Shown piece after piece: positions 1-53,132 of a stretch of DNA of 64,000 bases. The notes below the pieces were generated by a model. It saw only the letters and a program-made list of their open reading frames with translations, was not told the DNA's origin and did no database searches. Made by a program: the position numbers and the translations under genes. Each line of letters starts with the position of its first letter. Position 1 is the first letter of the stretch. The DNA lies in contig CAMDHZ010000003.1 in the NCBI GenBank assembly GCA_945898275.1, positions 62,001 through 126,000 of the forward strand, given 5' to 3'. Origin of the DNA: Chitinophaga pinensis (GTDB lineage: Bacteria > Bacteroidota > Bacteroidia > UKL13-3).

Positions 1-2276
1 GATTCAACAACGGTGACAATTGATTCTTTAAAATTTAAAATATCTCCCTTTTGATGAACATATCCTGTATTCGCGTCAGTTGCCTCAGGGCTTCCTCCTG
101 AATTATAGGTAATCACTGGCGTTCCACAAGCAATTGCCTCAATATTAGTAGTTGGAAAAGTATCCATGTAAGTCGGATTAATAAATACCTTAGCAAACGA
201 ATACCATTTAACTAACTCAGCCAAATTCTTAGTTCTAGGAATTTTAATGACATTTTTTGGGAGTTTAAATTTTGAATCATCTATTAGACCTATTAAAACA
301 ATCTTATAATTTTCAGGTAACAATTCTGAAATTTTAACAATATCATGTATTCCCTTAGCAGTTGTCCAAATATTAGCAACACCTAAAACGACATTGTATC
401 CTTCTAAATTTTGAGAAATTTCAAAATCAACTAATTCATTGGATGAAAGTGGTTTGAATAGACTTAAATCGATTCCATTGTTAATTGTAAGTATGCTATT
501 TTCTTTTAAAAACGACCTATTTAGCTGATTTTGAAGCCAATAAGATGGAGCAACGATAGTCATATTCTTAATTGAATTAAATATTTTTTTCTTATCGTTA
601 TAATTAATGTAAGAATTGTCCATCAAAATACTGCGAGGATATTTTTCCTTTTTGGGGCATGCTTGGCAATGTGTTGTCCATTTTAAACATGAAATATCTT
701 CATAATGCGCACAATGACCTGTAAACGCCCAGCAATCATGCTGAGTCCAAACTACCTTGATATCATTTTTTTTTAAATATGAAAATAATACACCAATATG
801 GATGTAATACCCATGAAGGTTATGCAAATGAACAATCTTAGGTTTAATTTTCTTTATTTTAAAAATAAAGAACTTAGTCGAAATATAAGACCCGAACCCA
901 TGTCTATCAAACAAAATAGATTTAAGACCATGAAGGTATGCATCAAGTAAATTATTCGTTCGAAAAACATTTTTGCTTTTTCTATTAGTATCTCCTCTAC
1001 CAAATGCGATAAAATTCGAATATCCATGTAATGAAGCTAAATCAGCAATGCTTTTTGTTATTTGACCGGTACTTCCACTATTAAAACTTGCATTTATATG
1101 CAATACATTTTCTGACGCTTTTGTCGAATTTTTCTCGAAAACATCTAAGAAATCATAAGCAAATTTTATTATGTTCTCGTTATAGTTAAGATTATAAGCA
1201 TACTTCTCAGCTTGGAAATTTTTCAATTGACTTGCCAACTCAACAAAGTCGTCAGGTTTAAAAAAAGAAATCCCCAAATTTAATTGTTCTCTATGAATGG
1301 AAATGTCAGAAGCAATTACTGGGACGTTAAGAGATTTAGCATCCTCAATTGATGTACTCCACCCCTCAAATTTTGATGGTTGTATCAAAGCTTGAGCATA
1401 CTTAATAAGTGCAAGTTGCTCATTTCTTGGAATTAAACCAGTAATTATCAAATTAGGAAAAAGGTAATTTTCTTTTATAAAAGACTCTAAATATCCAAAA
1501 AAATCATTATTACCATAAACCGAAGTATTTCCAGTAATTATAACGAGTATTTCAGGAAAATCGACCTTCAATTCCTTTAATGCTTTAAGTATAACTAAAT
1601 GATTTTTATGCTTCAAAAATTGATTACATACGATAAAATAAGGCCTATTTATCTCATACTTTTGAAGAATTTCTCTTCCAAATTCCACTGGGTCATTAAT
1701 CGAGGAAAATCTAACCGTATGAATTTTTAAAGATTCTGGAATACTATAATTTTCTACGAAATGCTTTTTTACATCATTGCTAGAAACAATCAGGTTCGAG
1801 GCATTTTTGATTAAAAAACTAATCCTTAATTTCCTAAGAAATAGTCGTTTTTTTTCAAAAAACTCTGGAAAAAAAGCATGTTGTAAATCTGGAATCCATG
1901 CTGCAACTATCAAATTTGAATTTATTTTCTCCTTTATTGGATAATCATTAATTGCGTAAATACCATCCAATTCAAATTTCTTTGAAATAGGCTCATAAAA
2001 CAAATTTTTACCCTTAATAACTGAAAAAAGAAATTTTTTTAATATGTCTTTATGCGAAGAATAATCCAACTTAACTTTACTTAAAAACGGAAAATCTAAG
2101 TCTTTGATAAAACTTTCATATTCTGGAGAAAAAAACAAATAGATTTTAGGCTGCTTATTAATTGGCAAATAAGAGATAGCTTTTATTATACTTATATAAT
2201 AATAAATGCCTCCCATCCACTTCCGTGAGAAATCAAAAATGATTCCTATTTTTAATTTTTTATATTCCGAATCCAA
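1..2276 (-). CDS. Two-domain GT4 glycosyltransferase fusion (3' end cut by window edge)
   Basis: I translated this frame by hand: it is open without a stop from 2276 to the left edge, about 758 residues, so the C-terminus is missing. Residues 1 to about 375 form one GT-B glycosyltransferase of family 4, with a Lys-Ile-Gly-Ile start and a nucleotide-sugar region containing PSKFEGWSTSIEDAKS. From about residue 385 a second GT4 domain starts with VLHINASFNSGSTGQI and contains HDCWAFTGHC, the pattern of WcaC-like transferases, and later EAIACGTPVITYNSGG. There is no ATG before the first beta strand; the best start is the TTG at 2276, overlapping the end of the upstream epimerase gene by 25 bases. 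An internal ATG at residue 23 would remove the first strand. It probably adds two successive sugars to the glycan. The fusion is seen directly; the substrates are unknown. Confidence 0.85.
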   Translation of the reverse strand, partial: MDSEYKKLKIGIIFDFSRKWMGGIYYYISIIKAISYLPINKQPKIYLFFSPEYESFIKDLDFPFLSKVKLDYSSHKDILKKFLFSVIKGKNLFYEPISKKFELDGIYAINDYPIKEKINSNLIVAAWIPDLQHAFFPEFFEKKRLFLRKLRISFLIKNASNLIVSSNDVKKHFVENYSIPESLKIHTVRFSSINDPVEFGREILQKYEINRPYFIVCNQFLKHKNHLVILKALKELKVDFPEILVIITGNTSVYGNNDFFGYLESFIKENYLFPNLIITGLIPRNEQLALIKYAQALIQPSKFEGWSTSIEDAKSLNVPVIASDISIHREQLNLGISFFKPDDFVELASQLKNFQAEKYAYNLNYNENIIKFAYDFLDVFEKNSTKASENVLHINASFNSGSTGQITKSIADLASLHGYSNFIAFGRGDTNRKSKNVFRTNNLLDAYLHGLKSILFDRHGFGSYISTKFFIFKIKKIKPKIVHLHNLHGYYIHIGVLFSYLKKNDIKVVWTQHDCWAFTGHCAHYEDISCLKWTTHCQACPKKEKYPRSILMDNSYINYNDKKKIFNSIKNMTIVAPSYWLQNQLNRSFLKENSILTINNGIDLSLFKPLSSNELVDFEISQNLEGYNVVLGVANIWTTAKGIHDIVKISELLPENYKIVLIGLIDDSKFKLPKNVIKIPRTKNLAELVKWYSFAKVFINPTYMDTFPTTNIEAIACGTPVITYNSGGSPEATDANTGYVHQKGDILNFKESIVTVVE

Positions 2277-3175
2277 TTAATGTAATTTTCAATCCCTGTT
2301 TGCAAAGAAAATGAAGATTTGTATCCAAAACTAATTAATTTAGAAATGTCTGCGCACCAGTTCAGAGGATCCCCTTCCCTAAAATTTCCATTAAAAACAA
2401 TTTCACCATTAAATCCCAAAAAACTTTTGAAAATAGTTGCGGCTTCGACAATTTCAATCTCAACTCCATTGGCAATATTTATTACATCAGCCTTAAAGTT
2501 AGAATTTAATGAGACCAGCTCAATTGCTTTAACCAAATCATTTATATAAATAAAATCACGAGTTTCCTTTCCTGTACCATATAATTCAATCTCTCCTTCT
2601 GCACCTTTCATCCTATGAAACAAATCCCAAAAAAATTGTTTTCTAAGGCCTTCACCAAATGCCGAAAAAATTCTCAATGAGCATGTATTTAGTCTAAAGT
2701 TTACATGAAATTCTCTGCAAATTTCTTCACTCATGTATTTATGTATACCGTATGGACTTATAGGATGAACACTATCTTTTTCAGAAACAGGTAAACTACT
2801 GGGATTTCCATAAACCGCTGCGCTAGACAAATTAATAAAATTACAGCTTGGATTATATAGCCGAATTGAATTTAAAATCTTAAATACATTTAATGAATTT
2901 AATTCAAAATCAAAAAGTGGATTATTTAAAGAGTTTGGTACAGATGCTGCACCTGAGCAATTTATACAAAAATCAAAATCTTGATTTGCAAAAATGAAAT
3001 CATAATTCATTTTTTCAGTATTTAATTCAAAATACTTATTATGGGTTAGGGCTTTATTAAAATTAGCATTAATGTCGGCTCCAGCAACTTCACATCCTGA
3101 TTCATTTAAATAATTGGTTAGATGTAACCCAATAAATCCATTACATCCAATTATTAGGTACTTTTTTCTACTCAT
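2252..3175 (-). CDS. NAD-dependent epimerase/dehydratase (extended SDR)
   Basis: A 307-residue extended short-chain dehydrogenase/reductase. The nucleotide-binding motif GCNGFIG sits at residues 10-16, the serine motif NLSSAAVYG at about 115-123 and the catalytic YxxxK as Y142-K146. The later LRIFSAFGEG stretch is typical of UDP-glucose 4-epimerase-like and 4,6-dehydratase-like enzymes acting on nucleotide sugars in the cytoplasm. It is followed immediately by the double glycosyltransferase, with overlapping ends, so it probably prepares or finishes a sugar donor for that enzyme. The exact reaction (4-epimerase, 4-reductase or dehydratase) cannot be read from sequence alone. The domain call is firm, the substrate open. 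Confidence 0.85.
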   Translation of the reverse strand: MSRKKYLIIGCNGFIGLHLTNYLNESGCEVAGADINANFNKALTHNKYFELNTEKMNYDFIFANQDFDFCINCSGAASVPNSLNNPLFDFELNSLNVFKILNSIRLYNPSCNFINLSSAAVYGNPSSLPVSEKDSVHPISPYGIHKYMSEEICREFHVNFRLNTCSLRIFSAFGEGLRKQFFWDLFHRMKGAEGEIELYGTGKETRDFIYINDLVKAIELVSLNSNFKADVINIANGVEIEIVEAATIFKSFLGFNGEIVFNGNFREGDPLNWCADISKLISFGYKSSFSLQTGIENYINWIRNIKN

Positions 3176-3244: not shown

Positions 3245-4324
3245 TTATTTCATTAAAAAATCCTCAAATTTTTCACAAATAGAATTAGGTTCAAACTGCT
3301 TAATTTTCAATAGAGATGATTTACTCATTTCAGAAAGGATAATTGGGCTATCTATCATCAATTGTAGCTTTAAAACATATGCTTCCTCATCAAAAAGAGG
3401 TACTAAAAATCCATTCTTACCATCCTCTATCAAATCCGATGGTCCCGCAACGCAATCATATGAAATCACAGGTAGTCCTGCTGACATTGCTTCTCCAAGT
3501 ACATTTGGAAATCCTTCAGAGCTAGATGTAAATGCAAATATTTTACTTCTTAAATAGTATGATTCTACGTCTTTTTGTTTTCCTGCAAATTCAACCCTTT
3601 CTTTTAAGCCTAACTCTGCAGCTAAGGCTTCTAAGTTCACCTGGTTTTGCTGTTTTAAATGGTCATAGCCAACAATTATTAACCTCCAATTTTCTGCTCT
3701 TTTTAATTTTGAGAAAATGCGAATTAAGGCATCGTGGTTTTTCGACTTAATCAATCTACCTACAGATACAATAACATTTTCTCTTGGTAAATCTTTTGCC
3801 AGTATTGACCTAATTGGATTTCCAATTACCTGTATATTAGAATGATCATATTTATTTTGATAAATTTCAAGCGCTTTTATAGTTTGTGCTATAATTCCAT
3901 AGGAGATTGGATACAATTTTTTTCTTAACCATTCCTGAAATGCTCCTAAACTTTTATCTGGTTGAGATCGATCTGATAAAATCACTTCGTGTTTGGTACC
4001 TAAAACAGATAACATAACAAAATTATTCCAAAACTCTCCAAAACTTAAAATCCGATAGGGTTTAAGTCGATGAAAGGTTTTTCTAAGAAAGAATAAAGTT
4101 TTAAGGGTACTCAGAAATCTCTTATTGTTATCAAAAGTAAAATTTGGTTTGACTACACAAATATTGGGATCAATTTTGTAAAAAATTTCCCTATTAATAC
4201 CATATAAGACGAGTGTTACTCTGTAGTGAGATTTTTTGACTAAAAAATTCGCCACCTCTGTCATTACTCTTTCCATTCCACCTGCTTGAAGAGAGGGAAT
4301 TGCTAAAACAATATGCTTTGTCAA
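3245..4324 (-). CDS. GT4 family glycosyltransferase
   Basis: A 359-residue GT-B enzyme. The N-terminus carries the IPSLQAGGMERVM motif (residues 9-21) found in GT4 transferases of capsule and O-antigen loci. The C-terminal nucleotide-sugar domain contains SVGRLIKSKNHD and SSSEGFPNVLGEAMSAGLPV, including the family's EX7E pattern. It should transfer a hexose or N-acetylhexosamine to the growing lipid-linked glycan at the cytoplasmic face of the inner membrane. It starts 5 bases after the ATP-grasp gene and is separated by 69 bases from the next gene, one of the larger gaps in this part. Donor and acceptor are not predictable. Confidence 0.88.
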   Translation of the reverse strand: MTKHIVLAIPSLQAGGMERVMTEVANFLVKKSHYRVTLVLYGINREIFYKIDPNICVVKPNFTFDNNKRFLSTLKTLFFLRKTFHRLKPYRILSFGEFWNNFVMLSVLGTKHEVILSDRSQPDKSLGAFQEWLRKKLYPISYGIIAQTIKALEIYQNKYDHSNIQVIGNPIRSILAKDLPRENVIVSVGRLIKSKNHDALIRIFSKLKRAENWRLIIVGYDHLKQQNQVNLEALAAELGLKERVEFAGKQKDVESYYLRSKIFAFTSSSEGFPNVLGEAMSAGLPVISYDCVAGPSDLIEDGKNGFLVPLFDEEAYVLKLQLMIDSPIILSEMSKSSLLKIKQFEPNSICEKFEDFLMK

Positions 4325-4329: not shown

Positions 4330-5274
4330 TTAAACTCTTTTATTTAAAACTATCTTTTCCCCAATTTTATAATCCCATTCAATGGGTCTAATTTGATCGA
4401 AACCACCTCCATGATGGTGAGTAACCTCTCCAAAGTATAGTTTACCATCAACATCATAGAAATCAACTCTAACATAATCATAAAGTGCCGCAATTTTCTC
4501 AGAAAACTCTACCATCTTGTCAAAACTCAAAGGTGGTTGAATTTCTTCACCTCGTATGTATCCTTTTTTAATTTTATCCTTTCCAGCAAAAACGAATGGT
4601 AATGGATTCCAATTTCTATCGTAAATATTACGCTTATTTTTGCCTTCTCTGTCTACTGAAACATAAACAAAATCAACCTTTCCATTGATACAATGAATTT
4701 TGTAATCATTTGGGATTTTACCATTTTTATCAAACAAAAGCTTTTCAACAATAATAGTAGGTTTCATGTTTTTATATTGCCATTCCCTGTCCAAATAATA
4801 GTAATTAAAGGACATCCACCATTTTAAATCTATTTGTAATTTTTTCCAATCAATTTTACTTTTATCCCTTATAATTTGATAATGCCCTGAGTCATGATTG
4901 CATTTTACAATTACTGGATAATCAGGAATATTGTTTGGTTGAATGTCTTTAGGATTGGTAGACATTAATTCCAAAGGTATTAAATAATCTTCTCCAAAAT
5001 GAGCCTTAATATAATTACGTACCTCATATTTGTCCGCCAAAAGAGTGTTAATTGCTCGCCTGTCATTAATTTTGAGCCATTGAATTTTTTCATTTAAAGA
5101 CCGCGGATTATCTAAATTCAATGCATATTCCTGAGCCTTAGGAAACATCATTTCCAAATAAGCCTTATCAGATAATCTTTCATACCTTAACCACCTGTAG
5201 GTTTTATAGGCATATAGTAAAGAATAAAAGAAAAAATTATTTAAGTACTTTAAGTTTTCAATTTTTAATGCCAT
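4330..5274 (-). CDS. TupA-like ATP-grasp ligase (possible glycan amide synthetase)
   Basis: A 314-residue protein resembling the ATPgrasp_TupA family. Visible family features are the early LDNPRSLNEKIQWLK and LLADKYEVRNYI stretches, the PVIVKCNHDSGHYQII nucleotide-binding region and a C-terminal VRVDFYDVDGKLYFGE segment followed by THHHGGGFD. ATP-grasp enzymes activate a carboxylate as an acyl phosphate and couple it to an amine. Its start overlaps the end of the HAD phosphatase gene by 10 bases, and that gene overlaps the aminotransferase gene. In the Campylobacter jejuni capsule locus an ATP-grasp enzyme, a HAD phosphatase and PLP enzymes together attach ethanolamine or serinol to a uronic acid. 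The same role here is an inference. Confidence 0.72.
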   Translation of the reverse strand: MALKIENLKYLNNFFFYSLLYAYKTYRWLRYERLSDKAYLEMMFPKAQEYALNLDNPRSLNEKIQWLKINDRRAINTLLADKYEVRNYIKAHFGEDYLIPLELMSTNPKDIQPNNIPDYPVIVKCNHDSGHYQIIRDKSKIDWKKLQIDLKWWMSFNYYYLDREWQYKNMKPTIIVEKLLFDKNGKIPNDYKIHCINGKVDFVYVSVDREGKNKRNIYDRNWNPLPFVFAGKDKIKKGYIRGEEIQPPLSFDKMVEFSEKIAALYDYVRVDFYDVDGKLYFGEVTHHHGGGFDQIRPIEWDYKIGEKIVLNKRV

Positions 5275-5927
5275 ATAATTTGTTCAAATTTTTTATTTGT
5301 AGCCCAATTTTGTGCTGTTTTGAAAGAAACCACAATTGGATGATTAGAAAAATTTAAAATTGGTAAATCAGTGATACTATCTGTGTAACAAAATATTTCT
5401 TCAAAATTCTTTCCTGTTTCTTTCAAGTATTCATTTATTCTAATTACTTTCTCATCAACCATGCAGTCTGGACCATTAAAATACCCAGTTACCTTTGCAT
5501 CAAGAATCTTAATTTTTGTTCCTATAACTTCGTCAAAGCCCATTATTTCTTTAAAATGATTTAAGTAACATTCATACCCTCCTGAAACTATTATCAGAAA
5601 ATGCCCTTGAGATTTATGCCATTCAATTTTTTCTACAATTTGATTAACTGCGTCAGTTTGAATTTCTTCAGCATATAACTTAGATAGGATTTGGAACTCA
5701 TTAAAATCAATTCCCTTTAATTTAATGAGCTTTGCCCTTTTTCCAAAATTCATTTTAGGAAAAAACTTTCCCATAAATATTGCCAAGAATCTGTTTCCAA
5801 GAAACTTTGAAACAGTTCCCCAGAACCAACTTTTTGTATTTGATTTACAGTATAAAAAATCAACAAATTTATCAGCTGTTTGATATTTGATGATAGTTTC
5901 ACAAAAATCAAAAATTGCTAAATTCAT
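5265..5927 (-). CDS. HAD-family hydrolase, phosphoserine-phosphatase-like, with altered motif I
   Basis: A 220-residue HAD superfamily (class IB-like) protein. Motif I is D7-F-C9-E-T11: the nucleophile Asp is present, but the residue two positions later, normally the general acid/base Asp, is Cys. Motif II serine is S115 in LIIVSGGYE, the motif III lysine is probably K160, and motif IV is D183...D187 in YTDSITDLP. The helical cap lies between motifs I and II. A small phosphorylated metabolite such as an amino-alcohol phosphate would fit the neighbours: the gene overlaps both the aminotransferase gene (4 bases) and the ATP-grasp gene (10 bases). The Cys replacement makes activity less certain, although some HAD branches lack the second Asp and remain active. 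Confidence 0.78.
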   Translation of the reverse strand: MNLAIFDFCETIIKYQTADKFVDFLYCKSNTKSWFWGTVSKFLGNRFLAIFMGKFFPKMNFGKRAKLIKLKGIDFNEFQILSKLYAEEIQTDAVNQIVEKIEWHKSQGHFLIIVSGGYECYLNHFKEIMGFDEVIGTKIKILDAKVTGYFNGPDCMVDEKVIRINEYLKETGKNFEEIFCYTDSITDLPILNFSNHPIVVSFKTAQNWATNKKFEQIIWH

Positions 5928-7024
5928 ATCAATTCCAAATTCAGGACATTTACAACTTTAACCATCTGTTCTTTAGTACCTATTGTGATTCTTAGACAAT
6001 TTAAAAGATGTTTGCTATGGGTTAAATTTCTTACAAAAATATTATTTGCAGACAACCTATTAAAAACCTTCATTTTGACTTCAAAACTTTCAAACTCTAT
6101 TAATAAAAAATTACCGTGACTTTCAAAAACTGTTTTTACAAAAGCTAATTGCCTTAATTCACTTTTAAAATAATCTCTTGCAAGTAAAACTTCTTCCACA
6201 TATTTTTTCATATACTGGGTATCTGAAAGGGCCGCTAAAACTGCAACTTGAGCAAAGGAAGTAAAGTTTTTAGCATTTCTTAATTTAGATACTTGCTGTA
6301 TATTGTTTTCATTGGACAAAAGATATCCAGCGCGAAAATTAGCAAGTGCGAATGCTTTAGAAAATGTTCTAGATACAAATAAATTATCATAATTTAACAC
6401 GTAATGAGCCATTGTGACTTTGCTAAATTCATAATAAGCCTCATCTACTAAAACAACAGTGTCCTTGTATTTATCAAGGATTTGCTTAATAAAAGATACA
6501 CTAAGCAAATTACCCGATGGATTGTTAGGATTACATAAATAAATCATTGATGGAGTTACCTCATCAATCATCTGTATTAACCCCTCTTCATTCAAGGTAA
6601 AATCTTCATTGTATTCGTAAAAATATACCATTCCACCTTGTGATTCACAAGTTAAACGGAAATTATCATAAGTTGGTCCTAATATAAGTATTGGATCACC
6701 TGGAGATACATAGGTGCGAATTAAATATTCGTGTAATGAATCTGAACTTGCAAAATATTGAATGTTTTCTTTTGGTAATTGGCAATAATCTGACAATAAT
6801 TCCATTATCTCTAAATTGTAAGTGCTAGGGTATAAATAAAATATCTCCTCATCATTTACAAGTTCTATCAATGCTTGTTTCACCTTTGGACTTGGGGGCA
6901 CACTTGCCTCGTTCCAATCTAACTTTAAAATCTCTTTTCTTGCTTCTGCATTCACTTCCCAAACCTTATGGGATGCAACTTTATACGGAGAAAGGTTGCG
7001 TAAATATTTATTTATAAATTTCAT
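5924..7024 (-). CDS. HisC/CobD-like PLP-dependent aminotransferase or decarboxylase
   Basis: A 366-residue fold-type I PLP enzyme of the class I/II family, closest in look to histidinol-phosphate aminotransferase and threonine-phosphate decarboxylase. Visible residues are N166 in CNPNNPSG, D194 in VLVDEAYYEF, the Schiff-base lysine K223 in SRTFSKAFALANFRAGY and R231. No histidine-biosynthesis genes are nearby. Instead it overlaps a HAD phosphatase gene and sits one gene away from an ATP-grasp ligase gene. In C. jejuni capsule clusters HisC-like enzymes in this setting make ethanolamine phosphate or serinol phosphate. I infer production of an amino-alcohol phosphate for glycan decoration; a conventional aminotransferase role is the alternative. 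Confidence 0.8.
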   Translation of the reverse strand: MKFINKYLRNLSPYKVASHKVWEVNAEARKEILKLDWNEASVPPSPKVKQALIELVNDEEIFYLYPSTYNLEIMELLSDYCQLPKENIQYFASSDSLHEYLIRTYVSPGDPILILGPTYDNFRLTCESQGGMVYFYEYNEDFTLNEEGLIQMIDEVTPSMIYLCNPNNPSGNLLSVSFIKQILDKYKDTVVLVDEAYYEFSKVTMAHYVLNYDNLFVSRTFSKAFALANFRAGYLLSNENNIQQVSKLRNAKNFTSFAQVAVLAALSDTQYMKKYVEEVLLARDYFKSELRQLAFVKTVFESHGNFLLIEFESFEVKMKVFNRLSANNIFVRNLTHSKHLLNCLRITIGTKEQMVKVVNVLNLELI

Positions 7025-7025: not shown

Positions 7026-8162
7026 TCAAGCTAATTTTTCTTTGTACTGGTTTCCAAGTTGTTCTGTATTCATAAATTTCACTTCTGGCCATTTTTTGAG
7101 AATCAAGTCCAACAATTCACTAAAATATTCCAAGTTAATATCTCTGTTTTTTTGGTTCAAACTTGAAACAAAATTAAGTCTATGTGTTGAAATTACCGCG
7201 GGTTGTTTAAAAAGGAATGCCACAGCAATATCATTTAAACATCTTTCAATAGCAGTTTTTCCAGTATATTTTGAAAAGCTAGGCTCAAAAGATCCGTTTC
7301 TAACAATGCTAATGATTTTATTATTTTCATAGCATCCGCCCCACCTTTTTGTTTGCTTTCTTTTATTTTCCTTATTGGAAGACAATGGCCCAGATTGAAT
7401 CCTAACACCCTGTAAATACGCTATTTCATTTTCAGCCAGAATCTTATTCCAATTTTGATCCCAAACATAATTATTGGGTATAAATGACTTGGATTTGAAA
7501 CCAAAAATTTCATTAAAAAGAGCTAATCCTTCTTTAATGTTTGATAAAAGATAGGTAGAATCATCTACTAAATCAAATGCGATTTGAACATTTCTTTTTA
7601 TTTTCTCCAAATTAGCAGTATGAATACCAAAGAAATTATTTTCAAAAGCAACCAAAAAAGCTTTGTCGCCATTTTGAAGTAAATCTAACCAAAGAGGAAC
7701 ATTAACATGTTCTCTTCCATGAAATTGAGGATAGAATAACTTTGAGCTTATTCCTTCCTTAACAGTTTTTAATATCTGATTTGAACCAAAATATTCTTGA
7801 TAAGTATCTGGGAAAGGCTTGTAAAAATACTGGGAAAAGTTAGATGCTTTTATTTTATCAAAATCGGGATTTGCCATAACATAATTGGCCGTAATAATTG
7901 GATGATTACCATCTATGTCTTTAAACGCCAATAATGTTTCAAAAAGTTTTTTTACATCGCTTTCATTCTCTAATGTATCAACATTTAAATAGGCCGCTTC
8001 TGAAGTGTACCCTCCATAAAGTTTGACTTGTTCTGCTGCTTTTAAATTTGGGGTTCTAATGCTGCCCCAATCATCAGATTCAAAAACAATAATTTTTTCT
8101 TCAAGCTTTTTGCTTTTGAAACTATTTAAAGCCGAAATACCTATTTTTTTTAAATAATACAT
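7026..8162 (-). CDS. Polysaccharide-deacetylase-like protein (NodB-fold candidate)
   Basis: A 378-residue protein without signal peptide. It shows the ingredients of a NodB-type metal site: paired aspartates in FESDDWGSIR near residue 30, an HxxxH arrangement in FHGREHVN, and a later STHRLNF segment where the family places a catalytic His. These features suggest a carbohydrate esterase 4-like deacetylase or a relative acting on a sugar or lipid-linked intermediate in the cytoplasm. It lies 1 base after the GT2 gene and 1 base before the aminotransferase gene, so it is tightly coupled to the amide-decoration trio and could supply a free amine. The fold assignment is moderate and the substrate unknown. 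Confidence 0.6.
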   Translation of the reverse strand: MYYLKKIGISALNSFKSKKLEEKIIVFESDDWGSIRTPNLKAAEQVKLYGGYTSEAAYLNVDTLENESDVKKLFETLLAFKDIDGNHPIITANYVMANPDFDKIKASNFSQYFYKPFPDTYQEYFGSNQILKTVKEGISSKLFYPQFHGREHVNVPLWLDLLQNGDKAFLVAFENNFFGIHTANLEKIKRNVQIAFDLVDDSTYLLSNIKEGLALFNEIFGFKSKSFIPNNYVWDQNWNKILAENEIAYLQGVRIQSGPLSSNKENKRKQTKRWGGCYENNKIISIVRNGSFEPSFSKYTGKTAIERCLNDIAVAFLFKQPAVISTHRLNFVSSLNQKNRDINLEYFSELLDLILKKWPEVKFMNTEQLGNQYKEKLA

Positions 8163-13827: not shown

Positions 13828-14919
13828 TTAAACAAGATTCGATAAAACTTCTGTAATTCTTTCTGCTGCTTTTCCATCCCATTTTTCTGGAATTCCTCCC
13901 TTTTTCCATTTACCTGAAATTAAATTCATCATAGGTAATTCCAAATCTTTTGGATTGTTTCCAATAAGTTCATTTGTTCCAACACTAATGGTTTCAGGTC
14001 GCTCTGTTGTAGTTCTTAAGGTGATACAGGGTATACCTAAAACAGTTGTCTCTTCTGTAATTCCGCCAGAGTCTGTTATTACACCCATAGCATTACTTAC
14101 CAGATAGTTAAACTCTAAATAGCCTAAAGGGTCTATTAAAAATAATTTATCGGTGTTTAATTCAATTTTCAATAACATTTTTCTAGTCCTAGGGTGAACG
14201 GGAAAAACAATCTTCAAATCTTCAGAAAAATTAGTAATTGCCTCCATTAAACCTTTCAACTGGGTTAAATCATCAACGTTAGATGGTCTATGTAAGGTTA
14301 GTATTAAAAAATTACCCTTTTGTAGTTTTGCTTCTTTCCAAATTTGGGGTTCTTTAAAATTTTGTATATTCCTATAAAGAGTGTCAATCATTACATTTCC
14401 TGTAAAAAAAATTTTCTCTGCTGGTACACCTGAATTTAGTAAATTCTGACTAGCCCAGCGGGTTGTAGTAAAAAAATAATCTGAAATACTATCTGTAACC
14501 ATTCTGTTAATTTCCTCAGGCATGCTCAAATCAAAGGACCTAATGCCAGCCTCTACATGTGCTACTTTAATTTGCATTTTTTTTGCAACAATAGAGCAGG
14601 CCAACGTTGAGGTAACATCTCCAACTACCAGCACCAAATCGCATGGATTCGATATTAAGTATTTTTCGAATGCCACCATTATTAATGCAGTTTGTTCTGC
14701 TTGAGAGCCGCCTCCACAAGCTAAATTAATGTCTGGACTTGGAATATTAAGTTCATGAAAAAATGTTTCACTCATTTTTTCATCAAAGTGCTGTCCTGTA
14801 TGTACCAATGAATAATCTAACTTTTTAGGTTTAGTTGCATTATGCTTATGCAAGGCATGTATGATTGGAGCAATTTTCATAAAATTTGGCCTAGCACCTG
14901 CAATTAATGTTATTCTCAT
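13828..14919 (-). CDS. wecB: UDP-N-acetylglucosamine 2-epimerase, non-hydrolysing
   Basis: A 363-residue member of the UDP-GlcNAc 2-epimerase family, the usual length. Family marks are LIAGARPNFMKIAPI at the start, LVHTGQHFDEKMS, VVGDVTSTLA, AHVEAGIRSFDLSMPEE with the conserved NRMVTDSISD, and a C-terminal TDSGGITEETTVLGIPC. It interconverts UDP-GlcNAc and UDP-ManNAc (or a related 2-epimer such as an FucNAc precursor). The pattern is of the bacterial non-hydrolysing WecB type rather than NeuC. Its start overlaps the end of the asparagine-synthase-like gene by 4 bases. UDP-ManNAc would fit the nearby WecE/WecF-like genes in an enterobacterial-common-antigen-like pathway. Confidence 0.92.
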   Translation of the reverse strand: MRITLIAGARPNFMKIAPIIHALHKHNATKPKKLDYSLVHTGQHFDEKMSETFFHELNIPSPDINLACGGGSQAEQTALIMVAFEKYLISNPCDLVLVVGDVTSTLACSIVAKKMQIKVAHVEAGIRSFDLSMPEEINRMVTDSISDYFFTTTRWASQNLLNSGVPAEKIFFTGNVMIDTLYRNIQNFKEPQIWKEAKLQKGNFLILTLHRPSNVDDLTQLKGLMEAITNFSEDLKIVFPVHPRTRKMLLKIELNTDKLFLIDPLGYLEFNYLVSNAMGVITDSGGITEETTVLGIPCITLRTTTERPETISVGTNELIGNNPKDLELPMMNLISGKWKKGGIPEKWDGKAAERITEVLSNLV

Positions 14920-16937
14920 TTACGTATATCTACCTTATAAATATCAACCCACATTCCTAACAAAATCAGGCGCCAATATAAATAATCAAAATTAATTTTA
15001 CCTGATTTTAATTTCAAATAATAATTAATTGCTTCCTCCCGATTAACTAGGTCACCTAATTTTTCAATACTATTTTTGAATGCATTTTCAAAAGCGCCAT
15101 CTGGATCGTTTTTAACCCATTGCTCTTCAGCAGTTATAAAACCCTTTTTATCTTTCCTATTATAAATTGCTGGCGGCAACAAATTCTTTAAGGCTTCTAC
15201 CATTAATTTTTTTGGGGCATTTAATCCATCTAAATATTCTAGGGGCTGGCCCATGGCAAAGCTTATCATAGGTTTATTTAAAAATGGCACTCTTGCTTCA
15301 ACAGAATGAGCCATTGAATTTCTATCTTCCCAATGCAAAAATCTTGGCAATGGTGAGCAATATAACTGGTGTTGGGTTAAACTACTATGTGATTTTCTTT
15401 TAGAATTATACCCTTTAAATGGATGTACAAATTTTTCAAAGTATGCCTTTGGTGGCATTATTTTATTATAAGATTTGAAATGCGATGATTGCTTAGAAAA
15501 AAAATCAAACCAAGCATCTGGAAAACCATATGTTAAAAATTTAATAAGGTAACTAAAATAGGTTTTTAGGTTCAAACCAAAATAAAACCTAAACTCTTTT
15601 AAAAGTGAAAACCATTTAAACTCTTTAAAAAATTTATACCAACGTAAATTCCTAAACTCTTCATATCCACTCAAATATTCATCAGCACCTTGTCCATTTA
15701 GCAATACTTTAACACCATTTCTAGCAGCCAACTCAAACACGTGATAGCCTAAAAACGCACTTTGCGACTGATATGGTTCGTCCATGTGCCACAAAATTTT
15801 AGGTGTTAACTTTATTACATCCTCCTTTTTGGGTGAAACAAAGTGCGCTGAAACATTTGTAAAATCAGTTACTTCTTGCATCCATTTTTGCTCACTATAT
15901 TTAGGGATATCACTAATAGCAGAAAAGGTTTTTTGGAGTTCTGATTTTCCTTCCTCCTTTAATATCTTATTGATTTCACAAACAATTGCGCTCGAGTCAA
16001 TTCCACCACTTAATGCAGAACCAATTGTTACATCCGACCTCATGTGTAGTTTTACACTTTCTTGAAATTTTACTAAGAATTGCTGCTTTCCTGCTTCAAA
16101 ATCTTTTGCTTGTGGGCTTGGCTTGAACCTAAAGTAGTTTTCAGTAACTATTGGGGTACCTTGTTGCCAATGAGGTAAATTATTAAAATCAAACTCAACC
16201 CTATTAGCAGGCATTAATTGAAAAACATGCTCAAACAAGGTTTCTTCGGTATGGTCCGTTAAACTATAATACAAATAGTCAAAAGCCCTAGGCTTGTTCA
16301 TAGTTGCTTTCCAACCCGGGTAATTGGTGAATTGCTTAATTTCACTTGCAAAGCAAAAATCGCCAACAGGACTAACCCAATAGTAAAGTGGCTTTATACC
16401 AAACACATCCCTAGCTAAAAATAATATACCAGCCTTGATATCAAAAATTGCAATGGCAAACATACCTTCGAACTTTTCAACACAGGCTTTCCCCCAATTA
16501 ATATAAGCTTGTAAAACAACCTCAGTATCAGATTCTGTTTTAAAACTACAACCTAAAGCTATGAGTTCCTTTCTAATTTCAAGGTAATTATAAACTTCCC
16601 CATTGTATGTAATCCAATATTGAGAAGTTTCATCAGACATTGGCAAATGCCCAAGCGGAGACAAATCCAAAATTGACAACCTTCTGTGTGCTAAACCAAC
16701 GTTATATTCTTGGTTAATATGGTGAACCATAATACTAGGCTGATAGCCAGTTTTTGTTTGCCAAGATGCATCAGGTGTATCTACTCCGCCAGCACTAATA
16801 TAATCTTTGGTTTTTGAATTTATACAAACATAACCTTCATCGTCCGGTCCACGGTGTTTAGCAATATTATTCATTTCAGCCAAAGCATTCACCTGTAAGC
16901 CATTTCCTCTACTAATTATACCTGAGATTCCACACAT
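14916..16937 (-). CDS. asnB: AsnB-type glutamine amidotransferase (asparagine synthase homologue)
   Basis: A 673-residue two-domain enzyme. Residue 2 is the N-terminal nucleophile Cys (MCGISGII), and the Ntn glutaminase domain continues with AKHRGPDDEG and YWITYNGEVYNYLE. The synthetase domain has the PP-loop LSGGIDSSAI near residue 310. It is longer than housekeeping AsnB (about 550) and matches the size of versions in O-antigen and capsule loci, where they amidate hexuronic acids to their carboxamides. Flanked by wecB-like and flippase genes in a cluster with TviB/TviC-type uronic acid enzymes, sugar amidation is more likely than asparagine supply, but that is inference. Confidence 0.88.
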   Translation of the reverse strand: MCGISGIISRGNGLQVNALAEMNNIAKHRGPDDEGYVCINSKTKDYISAGGVDTPDASWQTKTGYQPSIMVHHINQEYNVGLAHRRLSILDLSPLGHLPMSDETSQYWITYNGEVYNYLEIRKELIALGCSFKTESDTEVVLQAYINWGKACVEKFEGMFAIAIFDIKAGILFLARDVFGIKPLYYWVSPVGDFCFASEIKQFTNYPGWKATMNKPRAFDYLYYSLTDHTEETLFEHVFQLMPANRVEFDFNNLPHWQQGTPIVTENYFRFKPSPQAKDFEAGKQQFLVKFQESVKLHMRSDVTIGSALSGGIDSSAIVCEINKILKEEGKSELQKTFSAISDIPKYSEQKWMQEVTDFTNVSAHFVSPKKEDVIKLTPKILWHMDEPYQSQSAFLGYHVFELAARNGVKVLLNGQGADEYLSGYEEFRNLRWYKFFKEFKWFSLLKEFRFYFGLNLKTYFSYLIKFLTYGFPDAWFDFFSKQSSHFKSYNKIMPPKAYFEKFVHPFKGYNSKRKSHSSLTQHQLYCSPLPRFLHWEDRNSMAHSVEARVPFLNKPMISFAMGQPLEYLDGLNAPKKLMVEALKNLLPPAIYNRKDKKGFITAEEQWVKNDPDGAFENAFKNSIEKLGDLVNREEAINYYLKLKSGKINFDYLYWRLILLGMWVDIYKVDIRK

Positions 16938-36735: not shown

Positions 36736-38175
36736 TTAATTAAATTGATTTAAAGTTAAAAGTTGACGTTGAATTTTTCCAGATTCAGCACGAGGAATAA
36801 CACTCACGAATTCAATGTAATTGGGAAGTTTATAACTTTCTATTTTGTCTTTCAAGAAGTTCTTTATTTCAATTTTACTTATTACAATACCATTTTTTAC
36901 AACGATAAAAACGGCAACAGCTTCTCCAGTAATTTTATCAGGTACTTTTGAACAGGCAACATCCTCAACTCCATCTAGCTGAATAATTAAATCTTCAAGT
37001 TCTTTTGGAGCCACTTTAAATCCTCCAACATTTATGATTTCCTTGACTCTACCTTTAACAAAAAAATACCCATTTGAATTGGCATATCCTATTTCACCAG
37101 TCCTAAACCAATCCTTAAAAAAAGCAGATTCAGTCTCTTTTAAGTTATTCCAATATCCATCCATCAAAAATTCACTTTTAACACAAATTTCTCCAATTTC
37201 TCCCAGATTTTCTACTGCATTTCCTTCCTCATTTCTAATCGAAACCTGCATTGAAGGGCTAGGCAAGCCTATTGAACTCATAAAATTAGAATCGGCTTTA
37301 AAATCTTGAAAAAAGGAACGTGGCGATTCCGTCAATCCAAAATTCATGCATATTTTTGTATTTGGTAGAAGGTTTGTTAATAGCATTTTATGTGTATCAT
37401 CAAGAAAAGAAGAGCCAAATTCAATAAACCTAATTTGATGTTTAAACTCCCCAATTTTATCCTTGCTTAATGCGTAAATTGTTTGCCATGCTGCAGGCAC
37501 TAAACCAAGACTTGTCACTTGAAAATTTCTTATCTTTTCAAATAATACTTGTTGTTGAGCATAACCATCTATAAAAACTATAGATCCACCAACTGCTAAA
37601 ATACATCTTAACCTTCCTAAACAAAATGAATGCCCCATCGGCAAACCTATCAACTCTGTATCTTCATGGGAAATATTAATATAGGAATTAATGCTTATTA
37701 CAGAAGATAGAATTTTTGAATGATTTAGGAAAACACCTTTAGGGTTTCCTGTGGTGCCAGTTGTATATAATAAATCACCTCCTAATACAAAAGTTTCAGG
37801 AAAAATACCTGTATCCTCCTGACTGTCATAAATTTCAAATAATTTATTAATTTGTAAACCAATAATTTCAAAACTTGGATTGCAATCCAAAATGATTCTT
37901 TCCTTTCTATCTTTATGAGTTGCAAGGTTAATGGGTACGGCAATTCCATTGGATAAATGAGTAGCTAAATAATTAATTGCAAAATTTATATTTTTATCTG
38001 CATCTATTAAAACTCTTTGACCAGGCAACAGCCCACATTTTATAAGATTTTCGGATTGATTTATTACCAAATGATAAAATTCACCATAAGTCAAAATTTG
38101 GTTATCGACACTATAGGAAACAACTTTATTTCGATACTTGGAAGCAAATTCTAATACCTTATCTACTAATTTCAT
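36736..38175 (-). CDS. AMP-forming acyl/aminoacyl ligase (ANL superfamily)
   Basis: A 479-residue adenylate-forming enzyme. Core motifs seen are A3 LLYTTGTTGNPKGV near residue 145, A5 MNFGLTESPRS, A7 WFRTGEIGY, A8 GRVKEIINVGGFKVAPKELE and A10 PRAESGKIQRQLL with the catalytic Lys. In A7 the usual TGD is TGE, a conservative change at the ribose-binding Asp. It activates a carboxylic acid as acyl-AMP. The acyl carrier protein gene lies 21 bases upstream in transcription order, so the ligase probably loads that carrier. Acid identity unknown. Confidence 0.87.
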   Translation of the reverse strand: MKLVDKVLEFASKYRNKVVSYSVDNQILTYGEFYHLVINQSENLIKCGLLPGQRVLIDADKNINFAINYLATHLSNGIAVPINLATHKDRKERIILDCNPSFEIIGLQINKLFEIYDSQEDTGIFPETFVLGGDLLYTTGTTGNPKGVFLNHSKILSSVISINSYINISHEDTELIGLPMGHSFCLGRLRCILAVGGSIVFIDGYAQQQVLFEKIRNFQVTSLGLVPAAWQTIYALSKDKIGEFKHQIRFIEFGSSFLDDTHKMLLTNLLPNTKICMNFGLTESPRSFFQDFKADSNFMSSIGLPSPSMQVSIRNEEGNAVENLGEIGEICVKSEFLMDGYWNNLKETESAFFKDWFRTGEIGYANSNGYFFVKGRVKEIINVGGFKVAPKELEDLIIQLDGVEDVACSKVPDKITGEAVAVFIVVKNGIVISKIEIKNFLKDKIESYKLPNYIEFVSVIPRAESGKIQRQLLTLNQFN

Positions 38176-38196
38176 CTCGAAATATTATAAATATTT

Positions 38197-38424
38197 TTAT
38201 TTACCTAAAAAAGCAACTTTTAATGCTCCAAGGGAACTGATTTCAATCATTTCATTATCAGTTAATTTTTTTTCAAAATTATCTTCCAATTCGGTAATTA
38301 TCCTGATATGAGCTAATGAATCCCAACCTTCAATTTCAAATACATTTTTTTCCAAGGGCACATTTGTAATATCAATTAGAAGGATTTCAGAAATTGTCTT
38401 ATAGAATATAGATTCTTTATTCAT
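38197..38424 (-). CDS. Acyl carrier protein
   Basis: A 75-residue carrier protein of standard size. The phosphopantetheine attachment serine is S36 in EIEGWDSLAHIRI, the classic GxDSL motif in the form GWDSL. Helix II and III features (ELEDNFEKKL, NEMIEISSLGAL) fit the ACP fold. It lies between an SpsF-like cytidylyltransferase gene and an ANL ligase gene, followed by an AAC(3)-like transferase, giving a complete activate-carry-transfer set for acylating a sugar. A phosphopantetheinyl transferase is not in the window and must be encoded elsewhere. Confidence 0.9.
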   Translation of the reverse strand: MNKESIFYKTISEILLIDITNVPLEKNVFEIEGWDSLAHIRIITELEDNFEKKLTDNEMIEISSLGALKVAFLGK

Positions 38425-38465
38425 ATTTATATAAAGGTTTTAATTGAATATAGGTCCGACTTGAT

Positions 38466-40446: not shown

Positions 40447-40460
40447 AAAATACGTTTCAA

Positions 40461-42843: not shown

Positions 42844-42846
42844 CGC

Positions 42847-43857
42847 TTATTTAATTAAGTCCCAACTTAACTTTTGATGCTTTGCTAAGGCAACCTTTGC
42901 CTTTTTACCAATAATCTTGTCAAAATCTCGAGCATCTATTCCGTGATTTGGTCTTAATACTGTTAAGTTATCACTGGTAAACATCTCACCTTCCAAAATT
43001 TCTCTTGAAGGATAAACTGCTCTTCTAAATGAAACCTCATTATTATTTTCGATTTCGATAGGTATTGGAGTTTTAACATAACTCCCTTTTAGTGTGTTTA
43101 TCCTTTTTATTTTCTCTATCAAAATGTGCACATCATCCTTTGTATAAGAAAGCTTATGATCTCTAAATACTTTTCCAAATCGTGTATCCGTAAAATGAAA
43201 TTCAATTACTTCGGCACCGGCGGACACTGCAACTTCAATTCCATAAGAGTCTTCGAGATGATTTGAGAATCCAATTGTTAAGCCAGTCTTTTGCCTAAAT
43301 GTTTCCATCACATTGAGATTTGCATCTGATTCTTTGATAGGATACATAGTTGTGCATTGGAGTATGGCCAAATTATCTTTTTCTTTATAAAATGGATTTA
43401 CATTTTGTAAAAATCTTATAGTATCTAAAACCTCAACTTCATTTGCTAATCCAGCCGATAAGATCATTGGTTTATTTCTTTTCGCTATTTCTTTAAGAAT
43501 AGGGTAAGCTGTCAAATCTCCACTTCCAATTTTATAAATTGAAATATGTGGGTCAATCCAATCCAAATTTTTCAGGTCCCAAACTGAAGCAATGTACATT
43601 CTGCCTGCCTTCTTAACCATATTGGCTAATTCAATGTGTTGTTCAACAGTTAACTCAAACTTTTTAAAGTGTTTATTCCTATCAGGTGACTCTAAAGAAG
43701 AAACCAATTGATCACCTTCGTAAATTTGAAATTTAATTGCATCAGCATTTGATTCAATTGCCAACTCTGTCAATCGAAGAGCTTGTTTAAAATCACCTTC
43801 ATGATTACCCCCGATTTCTGCTATTAACAAAGGTCCAAATTTCCCTTTAAAATTCAT
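42847..43857 (-). CDS. neuB: NeuB-family nonulosonic acid synthase
   Basis: A 336-residue protein of the N-acetylneuraminate / pseudaminate / legionaminate synthase family. Marks are LLIAEIGGNHEGDFKQAL, ADAIKFQIYEGD, YKIGSGDLTAYPIL, LQCTTMYPIKESDANL, and GFSNHLEDSYGIEVAVSAGA. The C-terminal SAF (antifreeze-like) domain spans about residues 275-336 (VYPSREILEGEMFTSDN, PNHGIDARDFDKIIGKKA). It condenses phosphoenolpyruvate with a six-carbon aldose. The usual EFHFTLDKTMEGPDH segment appears as EFHFTDTRFGKVFRDHKL, suggesting a variant substrate. It sits 2 bases after wzt. Confidence 0.9.
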   Translation of the reverse strand: MNFKGKFGPLLIAEIGGNHEGDFKQALRLTELAIESNADAIKFQIYEGDQLVSSLESPDRNKHFKKFELTVEQHIELANMVKKAGRMYIASVWDLKNLDWIDPHISIYKIGSGDLTAYPILKEIAKRNKPMILSAGLANEVEVLDTIRFLQNVNPFYKEKDNLAILQCTTMYPIKESDANLNVMETFRQKTGLTIGFSNHLEDSYGIEVAVSAGAEVIEFHFTDTRFGKVFRDHKLSYTKDDVHILIEKIKRINTLKGSYVKTPIPIEIENNNEVSFRRAVYPSREILEGEMFTSDNLTVLRPNHGIDARDFDKIIGKKAKVALAKHQKLSWDLIK

Positions 43858-49605: not shown

Positions 49606-50886
49606 TTATCTAACCCCTCTGATAAATTGCATTAGGGTTTGAGAACGGTCAAAAAAAGTAAAGGTAAGTGGATTGCCCAAAGCAGTGGCTAGGGTTAAGT
49701 TAGTTAGTCCAACTCGAACTTCAACTAGACAAAACAAAAATACAAAAACAACAGAAGCAACTTTGTACCAATCAGGCCTTCGCTTAAACTTCAAAAGTTG
49801 AAAAAACAAAAATAGCATAAGAGTAACAGACATTAATCCAATATAATAAAATCTAAGCATGGAAGGTACAGAAGCTGTAAAATTTGCAAAAGCCATAAAC
49901 AATAGTCCAATGCAAAATAATTTCATCATAAATGGATTTTGTTCTATGAGTTTAAAACGTGCAAAGAAAATCCAAAAAAAACTGCCCATAACAAGAATTT
50001 TCACAAAGTCATATCGATATTTAATATACCAATTTGCGCTTTCAAAACTATCAAAATAATCAGTTGCATAATCTTCATTTACGTACCCTGCACTTCGATT
50101 TTGAACATTTCCTGGTAATTTTTCTAAGTAAACACCAATAATACCTATATCAATAAATGAAAAGAAAATTGAAATAATATAAATCCCAAAATAAATCCTA
50201 AGCCTATTTCCGCCAATTAAATACCCAAGAAAAATAATTACTGCTAAAACATAGGTATAATGAACCAATAAGGTTGAAAATATCCACAACAAACCACTTA
50301 CCTTTCTCCCTGAGAAATAGCGCACCATTCCATAAAAAAATATATGGGTAGCAGTCCAATACCTAAATCCATTAATGGACCAAAATGGCACTAAGAAAGC
50401 AAATAAAACTAAAAACGCAAGTGATTCAGTTTTAATCCTATCCTTTACTTTATCAATTAAGAACCAAATATTTCTAGAATAAAAAAAACCAAATATTAAA
50501 CCATAAATTCCAAATAGAACATACTCATTGTCTGTGACCCTAGAAACAAGAAAATTAATTAAAGGCTGAACTATATCAATACTTTCAGAAGATTCACTAG
50601 TTAAATGTTCCCAAAATTCATTAAAGGTATAGTGCTTTTTCGCATGAAGAATTTTAAGATTACTTGCATAAGCAAATGAATCAGTTCCAACTGTGAACCC
50701 AAATGTAATTCCAACAAAAATATTATATAACCAAATTACATTGACTGAATTTTTGAATTTATAATGCCTGAATGATAAAATAGTACCTAATAATGGCCAA
50801 AACAAAAACACAAAATATGAAGCAAGCTTGTCAGTACTTTTTGCAGGTGGTTTGTAATCTTGAAATTTCTTTTCGATGATAGCCAT
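49606..50886 (-). CDS. wzy: EpsG-like O-antigen polymerase (Wzy candidate)
   Basis: A 426-residue polytopic protein with about 10-12 hydrophobic helices. TFGFTVGTDSFAYASNLKIL near residue 60-80 and FWSINGFRYWTATHIFFYGM near the middle are typical of the EpsG family of polysaccharide polymerases, in which the loop Arg residues act in periplasmic polymerisation. It is the only Wzy-like protein I recognise in the minus block. It touches the next gene start (overlap 1 base) and is preceded by a 122-base gap. Family call good; the sequence alone does not tell which of the two flippases it works with. Confidence 0.85.
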   Translation of the reverse strand: MAIIEKKFQDYKPPAKSTDKLASYFVFLFWPLLGTILSFRHYKFKNSVNVIWLYNIFVGITFGFTVGTDSFAYASNLKILHAKKHYTFNEFWEHLTSESSESIDIVQPLINFLVSRVTDNEYVLFGIYGLIFGFFYSRNIWFLIDKVKDRIKTESLAFLVLFAFLVPFWSINGFRYWTATHIFFYGMVRYFSGRKVSGLLWIFSTLLVHYTYVLAVIIFLGYLIGGNRLRIYFGIYIISIFFSFIDIGIIGVYLEKLPGNVQNRSAGYVNEDYATDYFDSFESANWYIKYRYDFVKILVMGSFFWIFFARFKLIEQNPFMMKLFCIGLLFMAFANFTASVPSMLRFYYIGLMSVTLMLFLFFQLLKFKRRPDWYKVASVVFVFLFCLVEVRVGLTNLTLATALGNPLTFTFFDRSQTLMQFIRGVR

Positions 50887-51842
50887 TAATATAAAACTGT
50901 ATTTTTATAATAATTAATCGTGTTTATTAAGTTAGACTTCAGATTGTCATCAGGCATATACCCAAGAATACTAATGGCATTTTGAATATCAGCTAAGCTA
51001 AATAAAATATCTCCTGGTCTCATTGGTCCATAGGTTGGCTGGATTTTGACTCCAACTATTTCTTGAATATAGCGCCATATTGTATTTAAATCTGTGGTTT
51101 GCCCACAAGCAACATTAAAAACATAATGATTAGAATCACTTAAATTGCTAATCAGTGCTTTATGATTAATTTGTATCACATTGCTAACAGGGGTAAAATC
51201 CCTTGTTATTGTTCCATCACCATTTATAATTGGCGATAACCCATTTAATGCAGCATTAATAAATAGAGGAATTACAGCAGCATAGGGTCCAAAAGGATCC
51301 TGGTTAGGGCCAAATACATTGAAATATCGCAAGCCAACCAATGTTAAATTATAATTTTTAGCATAAACCTCAGCATATAATTCATTGGCCATTTTAGTAG
51401 CTGCATAGGGAGACAATAACTTTCCAACCCTATTTTCAACTTTAGGAGATTCCTTCAAATCACCATAAACTGAAGAAGATGAGGCATAAACCATTCGTTG
51501 AATTCCATTATGTCTAGCAGCTTCTAATATATTTAAAAATCCATTTACATTTACTTGGTGAGAAGTTAAGGGTTCTTTGATGCTTCTAGGAACTGATCCC
51601 AACGCTGCTTGATGAGAAATTATATTAATGCCATCACAAGCAGCCATGCAAGTTTCTAAGTCTCTTATATCACCTTCGATAAATTCGAATTTTGGATGGT
51701 TCAAAAGTGATTCAATGTTGGATCGTTTTCCAGTTGCTAAGTTATCTAGCACTCTTACCAAGGTAAATTCCTCAAGGCTTAAAAAGTGTTTAGCAAGGTT
51801 TGAACCAATAAAACCCGCCCCTCCTGTTATTAGTAATTTCAT
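50886..51842 (-). CDS. UDP-GlcNAc(A) C4 epimerase, WbpP/TviC-like
   Basis: A 318-residue extended SDR. GGAGFIG is at residues 7-13, serines 121-124 in YASSSSVYG, and the catalytic pair Y146/K150 in LLSPYAATK. The segment HQAALGSVPRSIKEPLTSHQ is characteristic of WbpP/TviC UDP-N-acetylhexosamine(uronate) 4-epimerases. The gene follows the TviB-like dehydrogenase at 3 bases, as in Vi and P. aeruginosa O6 loci. Together they should provide UDP-N-acetylgalactosaminuronic acid from UDP-GlcNAc. The order of oxidation and epimerisation cannot be read here. Confidence 0.88.
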   Translation of the reverse strand: MKLLITGGAGFIGSNLAKHFLSLEEFTLVRVLDNLATGKRSNIESLLNHPKFEFIEGDIRDLETCMAACDGINIISHQAALGSVPRSIKEPLTSHQVNVNGFLNILEAARHNGIQRMVYASSSSVYGDLKESPKVENRVGKLLSPYAATKMANELYAEVYAKNYNLTLVGLRYFNVFGPNQDPFGPYAAVIPLFINAALNGLSPIINGDGTITRDFTPVSNVIQINHKALISNLSDSNHYVFNVACGQTTDLNTIWRYIQEIVGVKIQPTYGPMRPGDILFSLADIQNAISILGYMPDDNLKSNLINTINYYKNTVLY

Positions 51843-51845
51843 AAT

Positions 51846-53132
51846 TTACAACCTAGCGTCTACTATGTTTTTAGGAAGAATTCCTTTTACATCAAACAGC
51901 ACTCCATTATCAATCATTAAATCTAATATAGATAAGGATTTGAACTCATTGTGAGCTACGGCTAATATTATAGATTCAAATTTACCTTCAGGTAACGTAT
52001 TGTAAGGGGTAAAACCATATTCATGTTGAACCTCTTGAATGTTTGCCCATGGATCATAAACAACAGGTGTAATATGGAAGTTCTTGAGCTCCTTTATTAT
52101 ATCAATAACCTTAGTGTTACGAACATCAGGACAATTTTCTTTAAAAGTAAATCCCAACACCAGACATCGAGCATTCTTGACAGGTACATCCTTTTTCACC
52201 ATTAACTTTACCACTTCCTCCGCTACATAGGCACCCATGCTATCATTTAATCGTCTTCCTGATAAAATGATTTCAGGATGGTATCCAACCTCTTGTGCTT
52301 TTTGAGCCAGATAATAGGGATCAACTCCTATGCAATGCCCCCCAACTAATCCAGGTTTAAATTTTAAAAAGTTCCATTTCGTACCAGCTGCTTCTAATAC
52401 TTCATTAGTATCAATTCCTAATTTATAAAAAATCTTAGATAACTCATTTACAAATGCTATATTGATATCTCTTTGTGAATTTTCTATTACTTTGGCGGCT
52501 TCCGCAACCTTTATACTACTGGCTTTATGTGTACCTGCAACAATAATACTTTTATACAACTGGTCAACCACTTCAGCAATTTCTGGGGTTGATCCACTGG
52601 TTACTTTTAGAATTTTAGTAACAGTGTGCTCTTTATCGCCAGGGTTAATTCTTTCTGGCGAATAACCAGCAAAAAAATCTAAATTATAGGTCAAACCTGA
52701 AACTTTTTCTAGAACAGGAATGCATTCCTCTTCAGTAACCCCAGGATAAACTGTACTTTCATAAACAACAATATCGCCCTTTTTCAAAACTTTCCCAACT
52801 GTTTCACTCGCCTTGTAAAGTGGAGTAAGATCAGGCCGATTATGTTTATCTGTAGGTGTTGGTACAGTTACAATAAATACATTGCAATTTCTTATTTCAT
52901 CAATTTTGGAAGTGCAGAGGAGACCACTATAATTGCCCTCATGGTTTTTTGTAATAACTTTTTGTAACAAGTTATCATCAATTTCAAGGGTGGAATCTTT
53001 GCACTCATTAAGTTGAAAAACTCGCCTTTCATTAATATCTAAGCCAACAACAAAATATTTTTCAGCAAAGGCTACAGCCAAAGGCAAACCTACATAACCA
53101 AGTCCAATAATTGCAATTTTAGTATTTCTCAT
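51846..53132 (-). CDS. UDP-N-acetylhexosamine 6-dehydrogenase, TviB/WbpO-like
   Basis: A 428-residue nucleotide-sugar dehydrogenase of the usual length. Marks are [64 protein letters not shown] and the active-site Cys in [16 protein letters not shown]. The wording matches TviB/WbpO, which oxidise UDP-GlcNAc or UDP-GalNAc to the uronic acid. It pairs with the adjacent WbpP/TviC-like epimerase. The resulting hexuronic acid is the most likely acceptor for the amide-forming enzymes elsewhere in the operon. Confidence 0.9.

Follow-up and report, generated by a model that had tools for sequence, protein, structure and literature searches.

The window, the 64,000-nt stretch of DNA analysed here, comes from the 98% complete genome of an uncultured Bacteroidota bacterium. 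Within it, a long exopolysaccharide operon carries three complete open reading frames towards its end, all on the minus strand and arranged head to tail. They encode a HisC-like fold-type I PLP enzyme of 366 amino acids (5924..7024), a HAD-IB hydrolase of 220 amino acids that is a predicted phosphatase with DFCET in the place of DxDxT (5265..5927), and a predicted TupA-type ATP-grasp ligase of 314 amino acids that is free-standing (4330..5274). The PLP and HAD genes overlap by 4 nt and the HAD and TupA genes by 10 nt; the spacing to the genes outside the trio is 1 nt on the preceding side and 5 nt on the following side. The same operon encodes an EpsG-type polymerase, TviB/TviC-like hexuronate proteins and NeuB-like proteins, as well as flippase-like and Wzc-like proteins that we identified by reading the sequence. 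The initial annotation had described the trio as three overlapping genes for a PLP enzyme, a HAD phosphatase and an ATP-grasp ligase in an operon that also has TviB/TviC-like hexuronate genes. The open reading frames, their overlaps and the profile matches bear out the first part of this description, and both hexuronate genes were located, at 50886-53132.

Immediately upstream of the trio, on the same strand, is a gene for an uncharacterised protein (7026..8162) that recurs as a conserved neighbour of the cassette. This protein matched no Pfam or NCBIfam profile above threshold and gave weak GH57 matches; its predicted structure (pLDDT 91) resembles the NodB/CE4/GH57 superfamily, including HP0310, ArnD and GH57 enzymes. 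It is a predicted deacetylase or deformylase that may act on a sugar within the same repeat unit. Homologues are present in L085-L105 and in L015, and several loci carry two copies beside the cassette. Downstream, also on the minus strand, are a GT4 glycosyltransferase that is a recurrent neighbour (3245..4324) and an NAD-dependent epimerase/dehydratase that lies beside the cassette in several relatives (2252..3175). Elsewhere in the operon, an AsnB-like glutamine-dependent amidotransferase (14916-16937) could make primary uronamides and thus provide a second amidation route; AsnB-like genes also occur near TupA in L067-L069 and L104. Beside the operon start is a divergent exosortase-like membrane protein (57383-58291; PF09721, 25.4 bits, just under the cut-off).

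The ligase belongs to the PF14305 (ATPgrasp_TupA) family, which it matches with 162.4 bits against a cut-off of 25, over profile positions 1-241 of 241. Structure prediction, which the initial annotation had proposed as a check, points to the same assignment: the AlphaFold2 model (pLDDT 92.4) has an ATP-grasp fold, its top Foldseek matches are ATP-grasp proteins, and so are all 50 of the matches listed by VIA-align, the best being a D-Ala-D-Ala ligase (Z 12.9). R269, D271, E283 and T285 are invariant among the TupA sequences aligned, and by our own comparison they resemble the metal site of Ddl (RVD...EVN), Thr standing where Ddl has Asn. The NCBI name for the family is already 'ATP-grasp fold amidoligase'. 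Phage matches to the ligase are few, about 31% identical and unannotated. The family includes a proven amidoligase of Campylobacter jejuni, Cj1438C, a TupA-like ATP-grasp domain (PMC11800379) that joins serinol-phosphate or ethanolamine-phosphate to glucuronic acid (GlcA; PMC11800379; PMC11800397). Cj1438C does not accept UDP-GlcA (PMC11800397), and amidation therefore takes place after sugar transfer.

The hydrolase scores 115.4 bits against TIGR01490 (HAD-IB), above the cut-off of 98.3. HAD phosphatases carry the motif DxDx(T/V), in which the second Asp is the general acid/base (PMC8069645). In the window protein, motif I reads DFCET and thus fails this pattern at the second Asp. D-F-C-x-T was found in all 15 cassette HADs aligned, with the Cys invariant, and L015 and L118 likewise encode HADs with DFCxT, whereas the 22 other HAD-IB proteins retrieved with the same profile all have DFD. 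A Cys in the position of the second Asp could mean a changed HAD activity. With Cj1435 as functional model, the predicted role of the HAD is dephosphorylation once the amide has been formed. Histidinol-phosphatase models scored far below threshold (69 bits, cut-off 280) and were not used for assigning the protein.

The three genes travel together. PLP, HAD and TupA genes adjoin in the window and in 14 other loci from Bacteroidota and Firmicutes, a count in which loci on the same contig were taken once (L014 = L094, L016 = L105) and which includes the near-identical L088 and L092, so that not all 14 are independent. An arrangement shared this often is not chance, and the trio is thus a conserved cassette. 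Within the same family, a TupA homologue is present in 5 of 64 genomes, the window genome among them, and in two relatives (G050 and G005) the PLP and HAD genes come before it, ordered as in the window. Scanning named genomes with the PLP alignment gave 23 loci: the trio is adjacent in every complete close-relative locus (57-64% identity to the window PLP enzyme) and in some of the loci at about 51-52% identity, and one Lachnospiraceae locus has the three genes in reverse order. A contig binned as Bifidobacterium breve (L089) carries a Flavobacterium-type cassette, and its bin is probably wrong.

The PLP enzyme matches Aminotran_1_2 and scores 272.4-272.8 bits against TIGR01141 (hisC), just 4 bits short of the curated cut-off of 276.55, and the cassette PLP enzymes of relatives score 250-265 bits. 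All the HisC cofactor- and phosphate-binding residues that we checked, including the phosphate-binding arginines, are kept, with their roles as in HisC structures; the substrate is therefore likely to be phosphorylated. Both the score and the residues favour the reading that this is a histidinol-phosphate aminotransferase and that the trio consists of chance neighbours. Identity to HisC is, however, about 28-30%, and in a tree the cassette enzymes group with their closest relatives, apart from the HisC proteins of E. coli, Listeria and Selenomonas (support 96/95), although the HisC branches are long and the depth of the split is uncertain. Plasmid matches to the enzyme are HisC proteins at about 28-32% identity. 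A PDB search made towards a comparison with Cj1435-Cj1438 returned no close chain; HisC chains scored 142 bits and 6oux 48.6 bits, so that 6oux is not the closest.

Genome content argues strongly against a histidine role. Profile searches of the window genome found no hisD and no HisC above the curated cut-off. Of 14 control genomes, B. subtilis also escaped the hisD search, and we therefore used hisF as a second check, which gave only a 22.7-bit fragment. Among eight related genomes with the cassette, hisD was not seen in six; the two hisD-bearing relatives (G456 and G461) each have an extra HisC over the cut-off, which in G456 adjoins hisD, and their cassette PLP enzymes stay below the cut-off. 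Given the missing genes and the separate HisC of the hisD-bearing relatives, we exclude a histidine role. This contradicts the outcome that the initial annotation had named as its refutation, a PLP enzyme acting only as HisC. With the strong linkage of the PLP gene to HAD and TupA, a histidinol-phosphate aminotransferase among chance neighbours is scarcely credible.

A natural replacement within the cassette points instead to an amino-alcohol phosphate. The G036 cassette has a different enzyme in the PLP slot, upstream of HAD and TupA. This enzyme is a full-length match to PDB entry 6oux (E 3.6e-111) and shares 46% identity with a Sulfurospirillum protein named 'norcobamide biosynthesis serine-O-phosphate decarboxylase'. 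Given the shared product name, we take 6oux to be SMUL_1544. Four transaminase residues of the window enzyme (Y20, D85, Y187 and S213 in E. coli HisC numbering) are missing from the G036 enzyme. The exchange matches the alternative known from C. jejuni, which has a transaminase (Cj1437) and a serine-phosphate decarboxylase (Cj1436) together with the HAD Cj1435 (PMC11800397). The same decarboxylase type adjoins a DFC-type HAD in G255, with no TupA. In L147:8093-11210, a serine-phosphate decarboxylase-type PLP enzyme and a DFC-HAD lie by what we read as a CapK/PaaK-like adenylating enzyme in the place of TupA. Taken together, the TupA family membership, the conserved cassette, the contradicted HisC role and the decarboxylase swap in G036 support the proposal of the initial annotation that this is an amide-decoration trio, which we retain as the best reading.

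The wider PLP clade extends beyond TupA. Distant members (L097, L099, L098, L102, L103 and L106) lie beside nucleotidyltransferase (NTP_transferase) and LicD genes; we read the nucleotidyltransferase in this setting as LicC-like, and these neighbourhoods are predicted to specify amino-alcohol phosphodiester decoration. In L096:1676-7107, an Fe-ADH gene, a phosphonopyruvate decarboxylase gene and a HisC-like PLP gene stand in a row, along with genes that we take to be nucleotidyltransferase-like and PEP-mutase-like, which is possibly an aminoethylphosphonate pathway with a transaminase other than PhnW. The TupA, LicC-like/LicD and phosphonate contexts all fit an aminoalkyl phosphate or phosphonate as the product of the clade.

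Two other identities were considered for the amine made by the trio. The position of the L096 PLP gene, after phosphonopyruvate decarboxylase and Fe-ADH genes, would be compatible with 2-aminoethylphosphonate as the product of the trio, but PEP mutase was found neither in the window genome nor in three cassette-bearing relatives, which rules out a phosphonate role in this genome, and the HAD phosphatase would be left without an ester to cleave; we regard this product as very improbable. An amino acid deserves somewhat more consideration. TupA is named after a teichuronopeptide gene whose product is thought to couple an amino acid to a uronate, the window HAD has weak SerB matches, and in certain sugar loci TupA occurs with no PLP and HAD partners. 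The PLP enzyme and a SerB-like HAD might then convert 3-phosphohydroxypyruvate via phosphoserine into serine, or produce a related amino acid, for TupA to couple to the uronate. The decarboxylase orthologue swapped into G036, however, makes ethanolamine-phosphate and no amino acid, and in C. jejuni the same three families serve amino-alcohol phosphates (PMC11800397); an amino acid is thus improbable here. The TupA genes without PLP or HAD partners point rather to other amines for other TupAs. One Bacteroidota polysaccharide cluster (L065) has three TupA genes and no cassette-type PLP or HAD partners. For the amino-alcohol phosphate of the window, serinol as the amine has about an even chance of being right.

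Two sugars of the locus could supply the carboxylate. A TviB-like UDP-GlcNAc 6-dehydrogenase (51846..53132, minus strand; 560 bits, cut-off 592) for hexuronate supply and a TviC-like UDP-hexuronate 4-epimerase (50886..51842, minus strand; 267 bits, cut-off 760) are encoded 45 kb upstream of the trio, and TviB and TviC occur together in three of the four mapped clusters (the window, G005 and G050). A uronate dehydrogenase within a few kb was considered as a general rule for TupA and rejected: none was found in most of the 14-kb TupA loci, and its proximity is therefore weak evidence. The alternative carboxylate source is a NeuB-like nonulosonate synthase on the minus strand (42847..43857). Its surroundings include CTP_transf_3, DUF4910, AMP-ligase and Antibiotic_NAT genes, which together with it form a nonulosonate-like branch of the locus (36736-43857). 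The chemistry would be the same if the ligase acted on a nonulosonic acid at its C1 carboxylate, a sub-case of the preferred explanation that draws on the NeuB-like and CTP_transf_3 genes of the window and on the G036 cluster, where a NeuB-like gene is present but TviB and TviC are absent within about 28 kb of the cassette. By contrast, TviB and TviC are both encoded in the clusters of G005 and G050, which gave no NeuB match in the stretches examined, and the characterised precedent is C6 of GlcA (PMC11800397). A hexuronate is favoured as the acceptor, with roughly even chances, and a nonulosonate is on balance unlikely.

On the strength of the families, the ligase fold, the gene order, the exclusion of histidine synthesis and the PLP swap that we observed, the cassette probably carries out amino-alcohol phosphate amidation of a glycan carboxylate, so that an acidic sugar in the exopolysaccharide of this locus would bear an amino alcohol in amide linkage. 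In the pathway we propose, the PLP enzyme would transaminate a phosphorylated ketone, most likely DHAP, giving serinol-phosphate as Cj1437 does. TupA would then activate the sugar carboxylate with ATP and couple to it the amine of the amino-alcohol phosphate, after the sugar has joined the growing lipid-linked glycan and not while it is a free UDP-sugar, with a TviB/TviC-derived N-acetylhexosaminuronate as the probable acceptor. Finally, the HAD would take off the phosphate, and the next glycosyltransferase could then act. More tentatively, and with less than even confidence, we suggest a generalization in which HisC-like transaminases of several phyla supply aminoalkyl phosphates or phosphonates for surface glycans through exchangeable modules: amides would be made with TupA and the Cys-type HAD, chiefly in Bacteroidota, and LicC-like/LicD enzymes would make the phosphodiesters of Firmicutes and Bacteroidales. 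The HAD would hydrolyse its phosphate ester with a Cys for the usual Asp.

If this reading is right, amino-alcohol amidation of acidic sugars reaches beyond C. jejuni capsules to a wide range of aquatic and gut Bacteroidota and to some Firmicutes. A row of PLP, DFCxT-HAD and TupA genes would serve as a signature from which neutralised acidic sugars could be predicted from sequence. Annotations would also need correction, as these 'histidinol-phosphate aminotransferases' are mostly in genomes without the histidine pathway, and the invariant Cys of the HAD poses a mechanistic question that is open to direct test.

We found no Bacteroidota amino-alcohol amide pathway in the open-access literature and, as far as we found, this amidation chemistry is proven only in C. 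jejuni capsules; the window system would be known chemistry in another phylum and probably in another assembly pathway. The PLP enzyme shares with HisC its fold family and its cofactor- and phosphate-binding residues, and differs from it in its low identity, its own clade, its linkage to HAD and TupA and a host without the histidine pathway. It is also unlike the SMUL_1544-type L-serine-O-phosphate decarboxylase (6oux), an orthologue of which fills the PLP slot in G036: the window enzyme is of the HisC-like transaminase type and only about 23% identical to that orthologue. The ligase is a member of the TupA/amidoligase family (PF14305) by profile and predicted fold, in a family so broad that amine and acceptor are expected to vary among members. 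With the C. jejuni Cj1435-Cj1438 module the window shares the same three families, in a polysaccharide locus with uronate genes, a likeness that we draw from family membership and published description. In C. jejuni HS:19, the corresponding proteins are HS19.10, assigned to serinol-phosphate by its authors from the locus, HS19.11C and the phosphatase HS19.09 (PMC13276843), and each of the three families is represented once, the same minimal set as in the window trio. The differences lie in the setting. The TupA domain of Cj1438 is fused to a GT2 domain, whereas that of the window is free-standing; C. jejuni uses an ABC capsule exporter, whereas a flippase-like gene and one for an EpsG-type polymerase are present in the window locus; the C. 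jejuni uronate genes serve UDP-GlcA, whereas those of the window are TviB/TviC-like; and, unlike the C. jejuni module, the window cassette has a NodB-like protein alongside.
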